Part shown: positions 33,254-41,000 of the stretch, one piece after another
How the letters are laid out: each line of letters begins with the position of its first letter
Position numbering within the stretch: the stretch's first letter is position 1
Assembly (NCBI GenBank): GCA_034521495.1
Contig: JAXHMK010000022.1
Location: forward strand, 186,001-250,000
Length of the DNA stretch: 64,000 bases
Reading direction: 5' to 3'
Source: Balneolaceae bacterium
GTDB lineage: Bacteria; Bacteroidota; Rhodothermia; Balneolales; Balneolaceae
Translations under genes and position numbers: made by a program
Notes under the pieces: generated by a model
The model's database searches: none
Told to the model about the DNA's origin: nothing
What the model saw: only the letters and a program-made list of their open reading frames with translations

Positions 33254-33271
33254 ACTACATACCCATGTAGT
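33254..33271. promoter_or_regulatory. 18-bp palindrome, copy 1 (before the response regulator)
   Basis: ACTACATACCCATGTAGT: 7-bp inverted arms around a 4-bp spacer, 40 nt before the response-regulator ATG. The same palindrome occurs at 37314-37331 and 37713-37730. The spacing is right for a promoter-proximal site of a dimeric NarL/LuxR-type regulator, so autoregulation is likely. Confidence 0.75.
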
Positions 33272-33311
33272 GAATGGCTTTCAAATGATAGCCATTTTTA
33301 AATAAAAACTG

Positions 33312-33983
33312 ATGGAAGAAAACGGACAAGAACCGAAACTGATACGTGTCGTCATTGTAGAGGATAACCAATATATTCGCGAGGGATGGGAGACCATTCT
33401 GGATAGCGATTCTCAAATCGTGGTAAAGAATACATTTCGCGATTGTGAGTCGGCTCTTGAATCCGATGATATTGCCTGGTGTGATATCATTCTTTTAGAC
33501 ATTCAGCTTCCGGGAATTTTGGGTACAGAAGGCGTCGAGAAGTTTTTAGAGATCAATCCTAAACTCTCCATCATTATGATTTCGGTGATGGAAGATTCCC
33601 AGCATATCTTTAAAGCTCTGCAGAACGGGGCTATTGGGTATCTCATCAAAAAAGTGGGACCGGATGAACTGATCCAGGCGGTAAAAGATGCGTATGAAGG
33701 AGGTTCTCCCATGTCTCCGATTATTGCCCGAAAAGTGATCGCTTCTATGCAGACTCAACCCAAGAAAAAGAAGAAACTGGATCTTACCGACCGGGAGCAG
33801 CAGGTCTTGCGATTGTTGGCAGAAGGTAATTCCTATTCAGCTATTGCCGATAAAATCTATCTGTCTGTGGATGGTGTAGGCTATCATATCCGAAATATTT
33901 ACCGGAAACTACAGGTAAACAGCAAAGCGGAAGCGGTGGCAATGGGGCTTGCAAATGGCCTAATAACGATGGCCAGGGAATAA
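33312..33983 (+). CDS. NarL/FixJ-type response regulator
   Basis: The receiver domain (residues 10-130) has the acidic pocket VIVEDNQ, phospho-acceptor Asp63 in IILLDIQLPG, and the Lys in YLIKKVGPDEL. The LuxR-type HTH (about 160-215) reads LTDREQQVLRLLAEGNSYSAIADKIYLSVDGVGYHI. A KKKKK linker joins them. The regulator should be phosphorylated by the propeller kinase encoded downstream (34377) and bind the 18-bp palindromes at 33254, 37314 and 37713. The hairpin at 34006-34029 follows its stop. Confidence 0.93.
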   Translation: MEENGQEPKLIRVVIVEDNQYIREGWETILDSDSQIVVKNTFRDCESALESDDIAWCDIILLDIQLPGILGTEGVEKFLEINPKLSIIMISVMEDSQHIFKALQNGAIGYLIKKVGPDELIQAVKDAYEGGSPMSPIIARKVIASMQTQPKKKKKLDLTDREQQVLRLLAEGNSYSAIADKIYLSVDGVGYHIRNIYRKLQVNSKAEAVAMGLANGLITMARE

Positions 33984-34005
33984 TTGTAAACTAACTGCAA
34001 TTATT

Positions 34006-34029
34006 ATTTTTTAGAAGTACTAAAAAAAT
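34006..34029. terminator. A/T-rich hairpin after the response regulator
   Basis: ATTTTTTAG (34006-34014) pairs with CTAAAAAAAT around loop AAGTA. Being A-run on one side and T-run on the other, it could terminate weakly in either direction or reduce read-through into the kinase gene. Confidence 0.4.
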
Positions 34030-34085
34030 GGTACTCTCTAACGGGATTTCTATTCAACACAACATGGTAAACTAAAAAAGAACAG

Positions 34086-34361
34086 GTGTACATCGTGAAT
34101 CCAATCGTTAAGGCTGTAGAAAATAAAACGGATGCTGAGCTCATCATTAAAGACAAAACCAAAGCGAAGTCAGAATCTGTTTCTCCCCATTCAAGGAAAA
34201 AGCTTACAAATGAAAACCTGTTCGACTTAACTTTTATATCAGAGACAAAAAGCCCCATATATATTCGAATTAAGTCTATTCCCCGAGATAGTGATCTCGG
34301 AGACGGAAATGATCCTGTAATTGTTGAAGCAGGAGATCCGGAAGAAGTTGAAGATTTATAA
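34086..34361 (+). CDS. Hypothetical small protein between regulator and kinase
   Basis: A 91-residue frame starting at GTG 34086 (or GTG 34095). It has charged helical segments (VKAVENKTDAELIIKDKTKAK) then strands (FDLTFISETKSPIYIRIKSIP) and an acidic tail (DPVIVEAGDPEEVEDL). No family recognised and no signal peptide. Its place, 15 nt before the kinase start and on the same strand, suggests an accessory protein of the two-component pair, but the coding call itself is uncertain. Confidence 0.5.
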   Translation: MYIVNPIVKAVENKTDAELIIKDKTKAKSESVSPHSRKKLTNENLFDLTFISETKSPIYIRIKSIPRDSDLGDGNDPVIVEAGDPEEVEDL

Positions 34362-34376
34362 CCAAATGGTTTATTA

Positions 34377-37259
34377 ATGATCAGGTGGATAAGCGTTGTT
34401 CTGCTTACTCTTCTTTATCCTTTAAGTGTATGTGGACAGGGTGTGCCTCTTATCCACCATTACAGTTCAGAAGAGATCGGTACCCATCCTCAAATTTGGT
34501 CTGTAACACAGGATGATTCCGGGTTTCTCTATTTTGGAAGTCAGGGAGAAACGATACAAGAATTTGACAGTGTAGATTGGGAGAGCTTACAATATAAACC
34601 CGATACAGGGGCTATTCGGTCGCTTCAGTTGTTTAATTCAAAGATCCATTGGGGCGCTGTTGGAGATTTTGGATATCTCGAAAGCGATTCATTAAATAAG
34701 TTTAGATTAGTTTCCCTGAAAAACCAGATTGACTCTACTCGCCGTTCGTTTGCTGATGTTTGGCAGATAGTTGAGTTTGATGAGAAGCTGTATCATCGCA
34801 CATCGGATGCTATTTTGATATTGGAACAGGATACGGTAAAAGTTGTGGAGAGCGAAGAGAGACTCCGGGGAATTTTTAAAGCAGGCGATGAACTTTGGGT
34901 TCAACGAGAAGCCAGCGGATTAAACCGGATGGTGAATTACCAATGGAAACCCATTGAAGGGTCTGATCCATTTACCGATGATCGATTGATCGAAATACTC
35001 AAATACCCCGATTATAAACTGTTGATATTCAGAAATCACGGTTTTGTGAAATACCAAAATGGACGCTTTACTGATCTGTCCACCGGTGCAGATGACTATT
35101 TACAGGAACATTCTCTTTATAGGGCAACTGCTATCAATGAAACGGATATTGCACTGGCGTTTCTGAATGGGGGAGTGGTGGTGATGAGTAATGATGGTAC
35201 GATTCAACATATTCTAACCGAAGAAAATGGACTTCCCACAAATGTAATTTATGAGGTTTATAAAGACCGGGAAGGGACACTTTGGGCAACATCATCAGAC
35301 GGAGTTATAAAAATCCTGGCTAATAATCCACTTACCGCTATTCAAGAGCAAAATGGGTTTGATGGCAGTACAAAATTTATAGAGTCCTTAGAGGGTACGG
35401 TATATATTGGGTCGACCCATGGATTATTTCTTCTTGAAGATGAGAATGAAGTTCATAAACATCCCGGTATAGATGAATTGGTGTATGATGCTATTCAACT
35501 AAACGGGACTCTCTATGCTTCGTTTCCGTCCGGCTTGTTTCGAATTTTGGGTAATGAGTCTGAAAATATTCTTAAGGAGGGCAGCTACAGAAAACTGGAA
35601 ATTCCCGGTAACAGCGGAAATACTTTTTTTGGAGCTCATCGGAATTCCATCGAACAGATTACCATAAGTGAACAATCCGTTGATCGTTCGGAAGTGTTAT
35701 ACAGCGAATCAGAAATTCGCCAGTTTTATGCAGATATCGATGGAATTTGGGCCGTTACTTTTCAAAATGAAGTTCTGTTTACCTCATTAGATGGTAATCA
35801 GACAAGAAAATACATCCCTGATATTGAGGGTGAATATTCCACCATCAGAAATATCTCTTCGATAAATGATAAGATAAGCCTGGCGACAGATGGCGGGCTA
35901 TATATATTTGATAAAGAATCCGATTCATTTTTGCCAGATACCAGTTTTAATTTGTATGAATCTCCTTCCGGTAACTCAAATATTGTGACATCCCAGGTCT
36001 TTTCATTTGAGCAGTGTTCAGATGATGAAATTTGGTTTATAAGTGGCCATAAAATCAAAAGGGCGATTCGTGTAAATCATTCATGGGAAATTATTGAAAA
36101 GCCGTACAGTCTGATTGGAAATGAGGGTTCAATACAGGAGATTCATTGTAATTCTGATGGAAGTCTCTGGTTTGGCGGCTCCGAGGGGCTGTTCCATCTG
36201 TCTGATACTGATTGGAGTTACGAATCCGATTTTAACACAAACATTACCGGTGTTTTTATGCCCAACGATTCATTGATCTATGGCGGGCACGGGGAACTCC
36301 CAGATATACCAGAGTTTACATATGAAAACAATGATCTTCGTTTTACCTATGCCGCAGCCAGTTATATCGATCCGGCGCTGAATACTTATAGAATAAGGCT
36401 GCAGGGATATGATGACCAGTGGAGTGAATGGACGGAGGAAATGCAGAAAGATTATACATTTATACCGGAAGGTACCTATACATTCCAGGTTCAGGGAAAA
36501 AATGTATATGAAAAGGCCGGGAGTATCGATTCATTTACGTTTACCATTCTGCCGCCCTGGTACAGAACCATCTGGGCGTATATAGGATATTTGTTGATTG
36601 CAGGCGGAATTATTTATGGCGGCTATCGAATACGATTGAATGCCATATTAAGAGAGCAACGAATTCGCGATGGTATCGCACGGGATCTTCATGATGAATT
36701 AAGTTCAACGCTCAGTAGTATAAATTTTTTCGCGGATGCCATCAATTCCAGGAAACTTGGAGAAAAAGAGAACAATCGATTTCTGTCATTAATCACAAAA
36801 TCATCCCGCGAGGCGAAAGAAAAAGTCAGTGATATTGTATGGGTTATCCACTCCGAAAACGACGATTGGACGAACCTGTTTCTGCGTTGTAAACGGTTTG
36901 CAGCCGATATGCTGGACGCACAAAATATTAAACATGAGTTTACATATCCCGATGAATTTTCGGGCCGTCCCACCATTACTGAACGCAAAAATATCTGGCT
37001 GATTTTTCGGGAGATCCTCACCAATATCGCCCGCCATTCAGAGGCTAATCATGTAGTTGTTCAGTTTCAGATGATCTCGGGAAGACTGCATATTCGAATT
37101 GAAGATGACGGCATTGGATTCGACCCGGAAAAAATAAGAAGTGACGGTTACGGAGTGCAAAATATTAAAGAGAGAGTTGAGCAATTGAATGGAGAATATA
37201 ATCTAAAAACAAATCCCGGTAAGGGAACCCACTGGCTGATTAAAGTGCCGGTAGCCTGA
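34377..37259 (+). CDS. Two-component-propeller sensor histidine kinase
   Basis: A 960-residue sensor. A signal peptide (residues 1-21, LSVCGQG) leads a periplasmic beta-propeller of Reg_prop repeats (GFLYFGSQGE, GTLWATSSDGVIKI, GSLWFGGSEGLFHL), then a Y_Y_Y domain (about 650-720, YRIRLQGYDDQWSEWT), one transmembrane helix (AYIGYLLIAGGIIYGGY) and a cytoplasmic HisKA_3 domain with IARDLHDELSSTLSSI (His near 771) plus HATPase_c (FREILTNIARHSEANH, EDDGIGF, GYGVQNIKERVE). HisKA_3 kinases pair with NarL-type regulators, which matches the gene at 33312. In this phylum such sensors often detect sugars or envelope signals. Confidence 0.93.
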   Translation: MIRWISVVLLTLLYPLSVCGQGVPLIHHYSSEEIGTHPQIWSVTQDDSGFLYFGSQGETIQEFDSVDWESLQYKPDTGAIRSLQLFNSKIHWGAVGDFGYLESDSLNKFRLVSLKNQIDSTRRSFADVWQIVEFDEKLYHRTSDAILILEQDTVKVVESEERLRGIFKAGDELWVQREASGLNRMVNYQWKPIEGSDPFTDDRLIEILKYPDYKLLIFRNHGFVKYQNGRFTDLSTGADDYLQEHSLYRATAINETDIALAFLNGGVVVMSNDGTIQHILTEENGLPTNVIYEVYKDREGTLWATSSDGVIKILANNPLTAIQEQNGFDGSTKFIESLEGTVYIGSTHGLFLLEDENEVHKHPGIDELVYDAIQLNGTLYASFPSGLFRILGNESENILKEGSYRKLEIPGNSGNTFFGAHRNSIEQITISEQSVDRSEVLYSESEIRQFYADIDGIWAVTFQNEVLFTSLDGNQTRKYIPDIEGEYSTIRNISSINDKISLATDGGLYIFDKESDSFLPDTSFNLYESPSGNSNIVTSQVFSFEQCSDDEIWFISGHKIKRAIRVNHSWEIIEKPYSLIGNEGSIQEIHCNSDGSLWFGGSEGLFHLSDTDWSYESDFNTNITGVFMPNDSLIYGGHGELPDIPEFTYENNDLRFTYAAASYIDPALNTYRIRLQGYDDQWSEWTEEMQKDYTFIPEGTYTFQVQGKNVYEKAGSIDSFTFTILPPWYRTIWAYIGYLLIAGGIIYGGYRIRLNAILREQRIRDGIARDLHDELSSTLSSINFFADAINSRKLGEKENNRFLSLITKSSREAKEKVSDIVWVIHSENDDWTNLFLRCKRFAADMLDAQNIKHEFTYPDEFSGRPTITERKNIWLIFREILTNIARHSEANHVVVQFQMISGRLHIRIEDDGIGFDPEKIRSDGYGVQNIKERVEQLNGEYNLKTNPGKGTHWLIKVPVA

Positions 37260-37313
37260 GGCCTCTCTCCTCTGCTAATTCTATGTTCATAATTATCGCT
37301 GATACAAACAAAA

Positions 37314-37331
37314 ACTGCATAGATATGTAGT
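37314..37331. promoter_or_regulatory. 18-bp palindrome, copy 2 (before the small exported peptide)
   Basis: ACTGCATAGATATGTAGT: one mismatch in the left arm to the consensus ACTACAT-N4-ATGTAGT. It ends 84 nt before the ATG at 37416, so there is room for a promoter between site and gene. Confidence 0.7.
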
Positions 37332-37415
37332 GTTTAATGGGGGTGATGAAAGTATTTTCAATAGGAAGAGAAGAAGTTATATGCTTTTACGATATAAACC
37401 TTTCAGCCTGCAGAA

Positions 37416-37685
37416 ATGAAAAAACTTTTAAAACATCTAAATCAACACAGATTAACAAGGGTCTTTGTGCCCGTCATCCTGGGATTGGTTGTTCTATCAG
37501 CATCCTCAATTTTTTCTTCGGGAAGTAACCATTATTTACATTTTCAAAAAGATCCATCTGCTGTGATAAAAAAATCGAAGACCCTGTCTGTAACATATGC
37601 GGTTAAAAAAAATTTTGGGCAGCATGAATCTCTTACATCGGGCGGAAGTTTTAACTGGAATTCAACATCAGAAGTTATTCCATAA
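37416..37685 (+). CDS. Small exported peptide, candidate target of the regulator
   Basis: An 89-residue frame with a basic N-terminus and one hydrophobic helix (VFVPVILGLVVLSASSIFSSG, about residues 17-36), then a hydrophilic tail rich in Ser, Lys and Asn. It could be a secreted peptide or a single-pass membrane protein. No homologue known to me. It lies directly downstream of the kinase gene and of palindrome copy 2, hence a likely member of the kinase-regulator regulon, possibly a signal or feedback peptide. A competing frame (37337-37528) has no such structure. Confidence 0.55.
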   Translation: MKKLLKHLNQHRLTRVFVPVILGLVVLSASSIFSSGSNHYLHFQKDPSAVIKKSKTLSVTYAVKKNFGQHESLTSGGSFNWNSTSEVIP

Positions 37686-37712
37686 ACGAATAAATATGGT
37701 ATTGAATACAAA

Positions 37713-37730
37713 ACTACATAGTTATGTAGT
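37713..37730. promoter_or_regulatory. 18-bp palindrome, copy 3 (before a gene-free stretch)
   Basis: ACTACATAGTTATGTAGT, perfect 7-bp arms and extended symmetry (ATA.TTAT core). It stands 28 nt after the stop of the small peptide gene with no credible gene until 38082, and a strong terminator at 37964-38004 in between. Confidence 0.75.
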
Positions 37731-37749: not shown

Positions 37750-38004
37750 GATATGCTTCAGGCAGAGAATAATTCATAACCCAACCTTTAAAGTTACATA
37801 AAGCGAGGTTGTGTAGCGGGCATGGAGGTGCCTGTAAAGTGAAGGTTGGGTTAGATTTTCTCAATGGAGTTATTACGTTGGTTTTTTTGGGTAGAAAATT
37901 GCTAATCACCCATTAAACCTCTTTAACTCTATTAGCTTATCATATATGATAACGGAGAGACAAAACGGCGGACCTGATTGAGCGCAGGTCTGCCGTTGCT
38001 TTTT
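37750..38004 (+). ncRNA. Candidate regulated small RNA
   Basis: The stretch between palindrome copy 3 and the terminator holds an 11-bp perfect stem, AACCCAACCTT (37778-37788) with AAGGTTGGGTT (37842-37852), closing a 53-nt internal region, but no ORF of quality. If transcription starts shortly after the palindrome, a ~230-280-nt RNA ending at the terminator results. It does not look like a tRNA or a riboswitch family I know. The 5' end is a guess. Confidence 0.45.
37964..38004 (+). terminator. Strong intrinsic terminator
   Basis: AACGGCGGACCTG (37964-37976) pairs with CAGGTCTGCCGTT (37985-37997) with a single G-U pair, loop ATTGAGCG, then GCTTTTT. It isolates the peptide/RNA locus from the tricorn-like gene. 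Confidence 0.85.
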
Positions 38005-38081: not shown

Positions 38082-41000
38082 ATGCTTCTATTTGATAAGC
38101 GATTCTTTCGGGCCGTTTCAATGTTGCTTTTGACTTCTTTTTCTACGCTTGCAATGGCAGTTCAGAACGAACCTTATTTTACCAGTCATCCAACCTTAAC
38201 CCCGGATGCCCAAACCATAATATTTAGCTATGAAAGTGATCTGTGGAAAGTACCGGCAGATGGAGGAATAGCTACAAGACTAACAGCAATGGATGGCGTT
38301 GAAACCCGTCCGTCTGTTTCTCCGGATGGACGATGGATTGCGTTTTCATCAAACCAGTATGGAAACCAGGATCTCTATATTATGCCGATAGAAGGAGGGG
38401 ATCTGCAGCAACTTACATTCCATCAATCAACAGATGAAGTAGAAGGTTGGTCCTGGGATTCCGAAACGATCTATTTTACATCCGACCGTGAGAATCGGTT
38501 TAGTACGTGGGAAATATCAAGAGAAGGTGGAACTCCGGGCAGAATTTTTGCTCATTATCACAATACCGATCACAACCTGGCGATGCATCCAAACGGGTCG
38601 TTCTACTTTAATACCTCGTGGGAGAGTAAAAATCAGGATCACAGGAAACGATATCGCGGCGAATTTGCCCCTCAAATTGAGGTATATGATCCCGAAACGG
38701 AGCAGTACCGGGTGTTGACAGAGTTTCGCGGTAAAGATATGTGGCCAACCATTGATGAAAACGGCACAGTTTATTTTATCTCTGATGAATTAAATGGAGA
38801 GTATAATTTGTATCAGTTTAACCTGGGAGTGAAAGAACATCTGACAGAGTTTTCATCATCCATCAAATTTCCGAATGTAAGTGCGAATGGTGAGAAAGTT
38901 GTTTTTGAAAAGGATTACCAGCTTTGGATCTACCATGTTACAACGGGTGAGGCAAACAGGGTGCCGATTTCGGTGTATGGAAACAACACATTAGCCAAAG
39001 AACAGGATTTTAATGTGCAGGGAAATATCACGGCATTTGATCTATCACCTGATAAAGAGAAGTTGGCGTTTTCATCAAGAGGAGAACTGTTTATTTCTGA
39101 CGCAGAAGGTAAATTTGTGCGAAAACTGCCAACAAGTGTGGATGGCCGCGTGAAGGAAGTTCTTTGGATGAACGATAACAAAACCATCCTGTTCAATCAG
39201 ACAAAAGACGGATATCAAAATCTGTTTACTATCTCGGCTAATGGTGCATCAGGGGAAATCCAGGTTACGGATGAGATGCAAAATAATCGATCTGTTTCCC
39301 TAAACAGTGACCGGACAAAAGCTGTATATCTGAGTGGAAGAGGTGAAGTTCGAATCATGGATCTACAATCGTACGAGAGCGAAACTGTAGTTGTAGATGA
39401 AATTTGGGACCTCTTTTCTTCGCCTCCAATTTTCTCTCCCAATGATACCTTTATCGTTTACACGGCTTTCAGAAATTTCGAACAGAATCTGTATCTCTAT
39501 GATATTGAAAACGAATCGGTTATTACAATAACTGATACCTTTGTCTCAGAGACAAATCCGGTATGGTCTCCCGATGGGAAATATATCTACTTCCAGACCA
39601 ATCGAACCCAGCCAAACTATCCGTACGGTCCACAAGAAACAGATATCTATCGAATAGCCTTAGATTTGATTGAACCAGAATTTCGGTCGGAACAAGTAGA
39701 TAAACTGTTTGAGGAAACCGAAGATGAAGGGACAAATGATGAAAATGGAAACGGTGAAGAACCTGAAGAAGATAGTATTGAAATAACCATCCGGGAAGAG
39801 GGACTGCGGGACAGATGGGAGCAGGTTGGAACACAGTTCGGTACACAAACAACACCGCAAATTTTTAAAAAAGGTGAGAAGACATACCTGCTTTACAGGT
39901 CGAACCACTCCCAGGGAGACACCAGTTGGTGGAAAACGGTATTTGAACCTTTTGAAACTCCTAAAACTGAGAAAATTGATGGAACCGAGATGGAATCAAG
40001 TGGGGTTTTGAATGTGGATGATTCTTACTGGGTGCTCCTGAATGGTGATATCCACACAATGAATATTGAATCCGGCAGTGTTGAAAAGATTGAGATCACT
40101 CACACGTTTCGGCGGAATCTTCGGGATGAGTTCAACCAGATGTTTGATGAAATGTGGGCAAACCTGGAAGAGAATTTTTACAGCAGCGATTTTCATGGCG
40201 AAAACTGGGAGTCTGTTCGCAATTATTACCGGCAATTTTTGCCGCATGTGCGTACAAGAAGCAATCTGAGAGAGCTGCTGAATGATATGGTTGGAGAGCT
40301 GAACTCTTCACATCTTGGTTTTTATTCATCGGGGGATGAAGAAGATCTCTATTATGGAAGTTCATCCCTGGCGACCGGTATCTTGTTTGAGGATGATGAT
40401 CCCTATATCGTTCAACGGGTCGTCGATCAATCGCCAGCCTGGCAAACAGATGGAGAGGTTCAGCCCGGCGATCAGTTAATAAAAGTGAATGGATTGGAGG
40501 TTGATCCATCACAAAACAGGGAGTATTATTTTACAAAACCATCCATGGACGAGGAGATGATTTTGACATTTCGCCGTGGATCAGCCAATCATGAAGTAAA
40601 ACTAAAACCAAGCTCTTATACCTCTGTTCGGGATGATATATATGAGGAGTGGATTGGCCAACGTCAGCAAATTGTTGATGAACAATCTGACGAAAGAATT
40701 GCTTATATCCATATGAAAAATATGGGAGGCGGTGAACTGGAGAATTTTAAAGAAGAGATGGTTTCTGAGGGTGAACAGCGGGATGCTTTAATTCTCGATC
40801 TGCGATATAATACCGGTGGAAATGTCCATGATGATGTTCTCCGGTTTCTCTCACAACGACCTTACCTGCAATGGGGATACAGGGAAGGCGAGTTAACAAC
40901 TCAATCGAATTTTACTCCGGCCTCTAAACCGATCGTTCTGCTTGTAAATGAACAATCTCTGAGCGATGCTGAACTGACCGCCCAGGGATTTAAGGAACTC

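Follow-up and report, generated by a model that had tools for sequence, protein, structure and literature searches.

A palindrome linked to a NarL-type two-component system and a putative small RNA gene in Balneolales

Palindromes and genes of the locus

Which genes would a two-component system control when three copies of one palindrome lie at its locus? The question arises from a window of 64,000 nucleotides, the whole stretch of DNA analysed here (G000:C22:186001-250000), in a Rhodohalobacter-like genome of 4,565,328 bases (~4.57 Mb) on 22 contigs. The motif ACTRCAT-N4-ATGTAGT, which a preliminary description had placed at 33254, 37314 and 37713, was found at all three positions. Between the end of the first copy and the regulator ORF (33312) lie 40 bp; the second copy is upstream of an 89-aa ORF (37416), and the third precedes a stretch without a notable gene that is closed by a 13-pair terminator hairpin. 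The locus order is palindrome 1, regulator, small protein, propeller kinase, palindrome 2, peptide, palindrome 3, terminator-ended stretch and a tricorn-type protease gene, which starts at 38082, about 80 bp past the terminator. The palindromes and protein-coding features are as follows.

33254..33271, no strand assigned: palindrome 1, ACTACATACCCATGTAGT, putative operator for the regulator, also present in G068 and G066
33312..33983, + strand: response regulator of NarL/LuxR type, 223 aa, with Response_reg and GerE above their Pfam cut-offs
34095..34361, + strand: small protein before the kinase, probable GTG start placed by the ATG of relatives, predicted beta-sandwich
34377..37259, + strand: propeller sensor kinase, 960 aa, with Reg_prop, Y_Y_Y, HisKA_3 and HATPase_c (Pfam)
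37314..37331, no strand assigned: palindrome 2, ACTGCATAGATATGTAGT, putative operator for the peptide, also present in G068 and G066
37416..37685, + strand: peptide, 89 aa, hydrophobic N-terminal segment (judged by eye), fast evolving
37713..37730, no strand assigned: palindrome 3, ACTACATAGTTATGTAGT, putative operator of the RNA, kept in G068 and G066

A genome-wide search for the exact motif gave three matches, all at this locus, and the motif read backwards gave none. Allowing one mismatch added a single place, C16:117628. With the degenerate form ACYRCMTRNNYAKGYRGT and up to one mismatch, the exact matches were again the three of the window, accompanied by three one-mismatch palindromes; the backward control gave seven matches per strand. 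The three palindromes of the window exceed chance expectation. Many copies at random places, which the preliminary description had named as evidence against a local regulon, were not found in the genome, where exact copies occur only here.

The regulator combines a receiver domain (Response_reg, 81 bits against a cut-off of 30.2) with a LuxR-type DNA-binding domain (GerE, 55.7 against 23.5) and so belongs to the NarL/FixJ type. All four domains of a propeller histidine kinase reach their curated cut-offs in the sensor, HisKA_3 only barely (24.4 against 24). The nearest relative, G068, belongs to the same genus as the window, and both G068 and G066 have the identical locus order with three palindromes each; palindromes 2 and 3 are 399 bp apart in G000, 399 bp in G068 and 437 bp in G066. 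Rhodohalobacter sulfatireducens WB101 (NZ_JAKLWS010000004.1) also has this locus, and its regulator is 94% identical to that of the window. The kinase of the window is 73% identical to that of G066 and 67% to that of G068 (L067 and L068 compared), whereas its regulator is 93% identical in G068 and 83% in G066. These discordant values suggest that the sensor part has recombined or changes fast.

The small protein before the kinase is conserved in position and variable in sequence (L067, L069, L079, L084, L085, L094, others, and the window). Six of these proteins have in common an HH and a C-terminal P-x3-HP motif, and some have a signal peptide-like start. The structure model for the proteins of six relatives was of low confidence (mean pLDDT 61.4), and that of the window's protein was better (81.7) and beta-rich. 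No function was assigned because neither model gave a significant match in a fold search (best E 0.055 for the relatives, 0.47 for the window). For the small proteins and the peptide, Pfam gave weak matches under the cut-off, which were disregarded.

Site, regulator class and promoter geometry across relatives

We collected 40 loci around regulator relatives scoring at least 189 bits, which hold 52 clade regulators, the window's included. For 45 of the 52, the 200 bp upstream contain a site that agrees with the degenerate pattern at 14 or more of its 16 positions, and 36 of these sites reach 15. No such upstream site was found at this threshold for the other seven, namely those of L071, L072, L101 and L103 and one of two regulators each in L067, L073 and L099. 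Upstream of 20 paralogous regulators, hand-picked from a longer list of regulator matches, the degenerate site was never found (0/20). Because the degenerate pattern had been drawn from the same loci, it was then applied to a held-out set of 17 regulators belonging to other families of Balneolales. Within 170 bp upstream, a site scoring at least 14 was found for 10 of the 17 (10/1700 in shuffles); in a span of 400 bp, chosen after the 170-bp result had proved this length too short, 16 of the 17 had a site scoring at least 15 (4/3400 in shuffles). An Ignavibacteriales contig also encodes a 54% identical regulator, with ACTACATACTCTTGTAGT just upstream and TAGCAT at offset 21. Relatives thus keep the palindrome beside orthologues of the regulator, a check that the preliminary description had proposed, and on these comparisons the palindrome goes with this regulator class across Balneolales.

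The half site varies together with the regulator. Lys176 accompanies the half site ACYRCCT in 14 of 14 cases and ACYRCAT in 1 of 29, and two sites are mixed. Because the half-site groups are probably subclades, the association with residue 176 may reflect one evolutionary event. From the co-occurrence and the residue-site association, we infer that the regulator binds the inverted-repeat site.

The paralogue class has a different palindrome of the ATCACAT type, e.g., ATCACATGGTTATGTGAT, which lies behind 13 of the 20 regulators and behind none of the 52 in the clade (shuffles 0/1000). The loci concerned are L122 (G000:C14:1-6600) and 12 further ones among L122-L141. Each of the 13 palindromes precedes a reading frame that contains CYTQ, as a small lipoprotein would, and these genomes thus seem to have a second operator system of local scope. 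A regulator variant in L135 (G039:C4) is flanked by ACTACG-type palindromes, ACTACGGGGGTACGTAG upstream and ACTACGAACTCTCGTAG downstream, which would fit a drift in operator specificity.

The distance from the palindrome to the promoter was analysed in 105 distinct sites outside ORFs. Behind the palindrome, T occurs at +21 in 84 and A at +22 in 85 sites, followed by T at +25 in 71 and at +26 in 91. A TAnnTTTG-like box (5/6 matches) occurs 19 times at offset 21, compared with 1.4 expected per offset, and in the held-out set TAnnTT lies exactly 21 nt behind the site in 14 of 16 cases. If the T at offset 21 is taken as -12, the palindrome centre therefore falls near -42, which is the position of class II activators. 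In the window, the candidate boxes are as follows.

33293..33298, + strand: putative -10 box CATTTT, 21 nt after palindrome 1, transcription start probably near 33305
37353..37358, + strand: putative -10 box TATTTT behind palindrome 2, start probably near 37365
37752..37757, + strand: putative -10 box TATGCT behind palindrome 3, start probably near 37764

The first of these boxes, CATTTT, is imperfect, which counts against the promoter model. Between palindrome 1 and the regulator, at 33273-33303, AATGGCT...AGCCATT forms a short inverted repeat, most of which G068 retains and which overlaps the putative -10 box.

The geometry also bears on whether the regulator activates or represses. The site overlaps the -35 region, and a repressor placed there could also block polymerase, giving negative autoregulation. 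However, the fixed 21-nt distance to the -10 box, seen in the 105 sites and in the held-out set, is needed by an activator that contacts polymerase and not by a repressor, and we consider repression quite unlikely. Operator and promoter geometry together point to activation.

Putative small RNA, peptide and further candidate targets

Behind palindrome 3, the window contains the following features.

37764..38003, + strand: putative small RNA, ~240 nt, approximate ends, three-way junction at ~37775-37860
37964..37997, + strand: intrinsic terminator hairpin, 13 pairs, loop CCTGATTGAGC

The loop CCTGATTGAGC is identical in the window, G068 and G066, and the stem varies. The segment 37751-38006 folds with -91.9 kcal/mol (z -6.68), and none of 200 shuffles folded as well. 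For the three-way junction (37762-37868), z was -5.93, and its counterparts in G068 (-7.11) and G066 (-3.56) have the identical topology. In the junction alignment of the three species, 89% of cells pair, compared with 34-50% when the sequences are slid, and 6 of 34 pairs change on both sides, a number reached by 11 of 500 shuffles. Covariation is limited with only three sequences: 17 of 500 shuffles reached the covariation score, and 298 of 500 reached the number of pair types, which is not above shuffles. RNAalifold on a longer alignment gave 82 pairs (7 within the palindrome), 17 of them changed on both sides, with a covariation term near zero.

By DNA similarity among 92 genomes, the RNA has real coverage only in the window and G068; the G066 counterpart was recognised by position. 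G022 gave a match of 20 bases, which we attributed to chance. In a search for ORFs on the sense strand (ATG start, at least 25 aa), none starts inside the RNA in G068, a 27-aa ORF covers the terminator in G066, and a 60-aa ORF extends 16 nt into the RNA in the window; no such ORF is common to the three. Rfam gave no match at the gathering score in the window or in nine related loci, and three weak matches below that score were taken as chance. The stretch behind palindrome 3 appears to be a non-coding, strongly structured putative RNA that is presumably expressed.

Similar stretches were sought in other genera. A site was called gene-proximal when a gene of at least 80 aa starts no more than 135 bp behind it, and terminators were sought within 300 nt. 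Of the 35 gene-less sites, 24 are followed by a strong terminator, as are 3 of the 71 gene-proximal sites; for random intergenic positions of the same loci the count is 54 of 400. The first count is the yield of a strict rule, because this rule misses some visible hairpins, i.e., the window's own terminator and those seen in L075, L080 and L090. L069 was left out of the RNA segments since it looked like a regulator leader. The stretches differ in sequence between genera, and the RNAs of other genera lack one common sequence. Among 30 distinct stretches, 15 contain GAGA[GA] and 10 others CTAACC; GAGA[GA] also occurs in 0 to 56% of shuffles of the same stretches and, being only modestly above them, is therefore a lead. 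In other families, a site is found some 4 kb upstream of the regulator at nine loci, of which six have a terminator within 300 nt and seven have AAGAGAG behind the site (counted by eye).

These stretches also bear on whether palindrome 3 instead drives a 5' leader or attenuator of the tricorn-type protease gene. The short distance from the terminator to that gene, and its presence downstream of the RNA in all three Rhodohalobacter loci, fit a leader. In other genera, however, the gene behind the terminator-closed stretches varies and is unrelated (e.g., AtuA family), and in L083, L085, L086 and L091 it is head-on to the stretch, where a leader role is impossible. The varying next gene and its opposite direction in four loci argue for stand-alone RNAs, by analogy only as far as the window is concerned, since the RNAs of these genera are dissimilar to its own. 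We regard a leader as improbable, to the same degree as repression, and keep to a stand-alone RNA.

The peptide was found by sequence in 2 of the 92 genomes, the window and G068, where it is 28% identical; that of G066 was recognised by position. Between G000 and G068, its dN is 0.60 and its dS 1.65; the dN values of the regulator, the small protein and the kinase are 0.05, 0.23 and 0.24, and several dS values of these gene pairs are near saturation. The peptide evolves fast and still looks coding, and its last residues seem best conserved. Fast evolution would fit a predicted exported signal or self-recognition peptide.

Further sites were inspected in 20 regions hand-picked from a longer list. 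A site scoring at least 15 is present in 17 of them, in two cases at the two-component system (L155, L160). For 10 of the 15 remaining sites (L142-L148, L150-L152), at least three of the four box letters stand at offset 21 and an ORF longer than 200 aa follows within 210 nt in the same direction; all four letters are present only in L146 and L152. No fitting box and ORF were found in five regions (L149, L153, L154, L156, L161). A Pfam scan of six such products named PEGA, Por_Secre_tail and FG-GAP and left three without a name. Near the two-component system, sites in five loci lie 70-77 nt before ORFs of 1589-1912 aa that form one cluster, and the one member scanned is a right-handed beta-helix protein. 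In relatives, the site thus also stands before large secreted proteins, some of them far from the two-component system. These wider target sets make the local regulon of the window look like a reduced form. In G060 (C200), the site L160:306 faces a 59-aa predicted exported PID-CTERM peptide (L160:2-178) on the strand opposite the regulator.

Proposed circuit and relation to known systems

By these comparisons, the palindrome marks the regulator gene, a small predicted exported peptide gene and a structured, terminator-closed putative RNA stretch. We think it likely that the neighbouring NarL-type regulator has its operator in this palindrome and controls, most probably as a class II activator, its own gene, the peptide and a stand-alone RNA of ~240 nt. 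Judging from the protein families, the kinase would phosphorylate the regulator on a signal, and the phosphorylated dimer would bind both 7-bp half sites, whose centre lies near -42, and recruit RNA polymerase to the TAnnTT box 21 nt downstream. The regulator would then activate its own gene and, downstream of it, those of the small protein and the propeller kinase, as well as the gene of the fast-evolving, predicted exported peptide and the structured small RNA. In the genome of the window, the regulon would be confined to one 4.7-kb locus with the RNA and the peptide as outputs; in relatives, the same site would mark genes of the two-component system, terminator-closed RNA genes and large secreted proteins. 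The preliminary description had proposed such a circuit of regulator, peptide and RNA, and had added that the peptide could feed back on the propeller sensor. The three-part circuit is well supported by comparison, in the site, the geometry, the terminators and the RNA fold; in relatives, the regulon often extends beyond a closed local circuit.

That the palindromes belong to another regulator or a repeat element and adjoin the two-component system by coincidence is very improbable, as nothing was found in its favour and against it stand the lack of exact copies elsewhere in the genome, the absence of the palindrome upstream of the 20 paralogues (13 being followed by a different one), the site variants that track the regulator subclass, and the difference from the published Balneolaeota LexA motif, a direct repeat (PMC7739468).

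Building on the activator reading, we put forward one extension, which we consider doubtful. Across Balneolales and at least one Ignavibacteriales contig, the propeller-kinase two-component system would act via CsrA-independent small RNAs from its own locus, whose repeated GAGA or CTAACC motifs would bind either a protein or surface-protein mRNAs. A self-recognition loop onto the propeller sensor would be closed by the exported peptide or by the small pre-kinase protein.

Among known systems, the propeller-type (Reg_prop/Y_Y_Y) sensors of Bacteroidota, for which the hybrid sensors of polysaccharide loci are the comparator, have the same sensor architecture; they differ from the present locus, which has a separate NarL-type regulator, a local palindromic regulon and a putative RNA. 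LuxO-Qrr and CiaRH-csRNA are further cases of two-component regulators driving small RNAs, with other regulator types, lineages and operators. No NCBIfam equivalog reached its own cut-off for the regulator among the best 25 of 96. The Balneolaeota LexA regulon resembles the present case in being read from promoter motifs in the same phylum, and it was studied with gel shifts on Rhodohalobacter halophilus promoters (PMC7739468). Its motif, the direct repeat TTACACATATTTTWTACATA, and its protein, LexA, are unrelated to the motif and regulator here, and membership in that regulon was rejected by comparing the two motifs (published consensus from PMC7739468).

In a literature search covering titles and the beginnings of abstracts, with subscription papers mostly outside, we found no report of such a circuit in Balneolota or Bacteroidetes. 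If correct, it would be a switch from a two-component system to a small RNA in a phylum for which the LexA regulon was the only one found in print (PMC7739468). Because the operator is readable from sequence at a fixed distance from the -10 box, its targets and the RNA genes can be catalogued across many genomes.

The closest likeness is to Gac/Rsm, in which a palindromic upstream activating sequence precedes small RNA genes (PMC2375449). Here, too, a NarL-type regulator is combined with a palindrome before putative stand-alone small RNA genes, a likeness in kind and not in sequence. In contrast to Gac/Rsm (BarA-UvrY/Csr), the palindrome sequence is another, the kinase has no receiver or HPt domain among its Pfam matches, the RNA gene adjoins the two-component system, and the operator also stands before the regulator gene. 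Membership in Gac/Rsm was rejected, as CsrA (PF02599) was found in none of the 92 genomes (the model was found in 3 of 14 control genomes) and the regulator scored 106.7 bits in the GacA/UvrY equivalog test, far below the cut-off of 280. Because CsrA is absent from all 92, CsrA titration, the Gac/Rsm mode of action, is unlikely. The general kind, a two-component system with its own RNA through a palindrome, is already known from Gac/Rsm, but the operator, the RNAs, the gene layout and the lineage appear new. With a Gac/Rsm-like layout that lacks CsrA, the mode of action of the RNA becomes a testable question.
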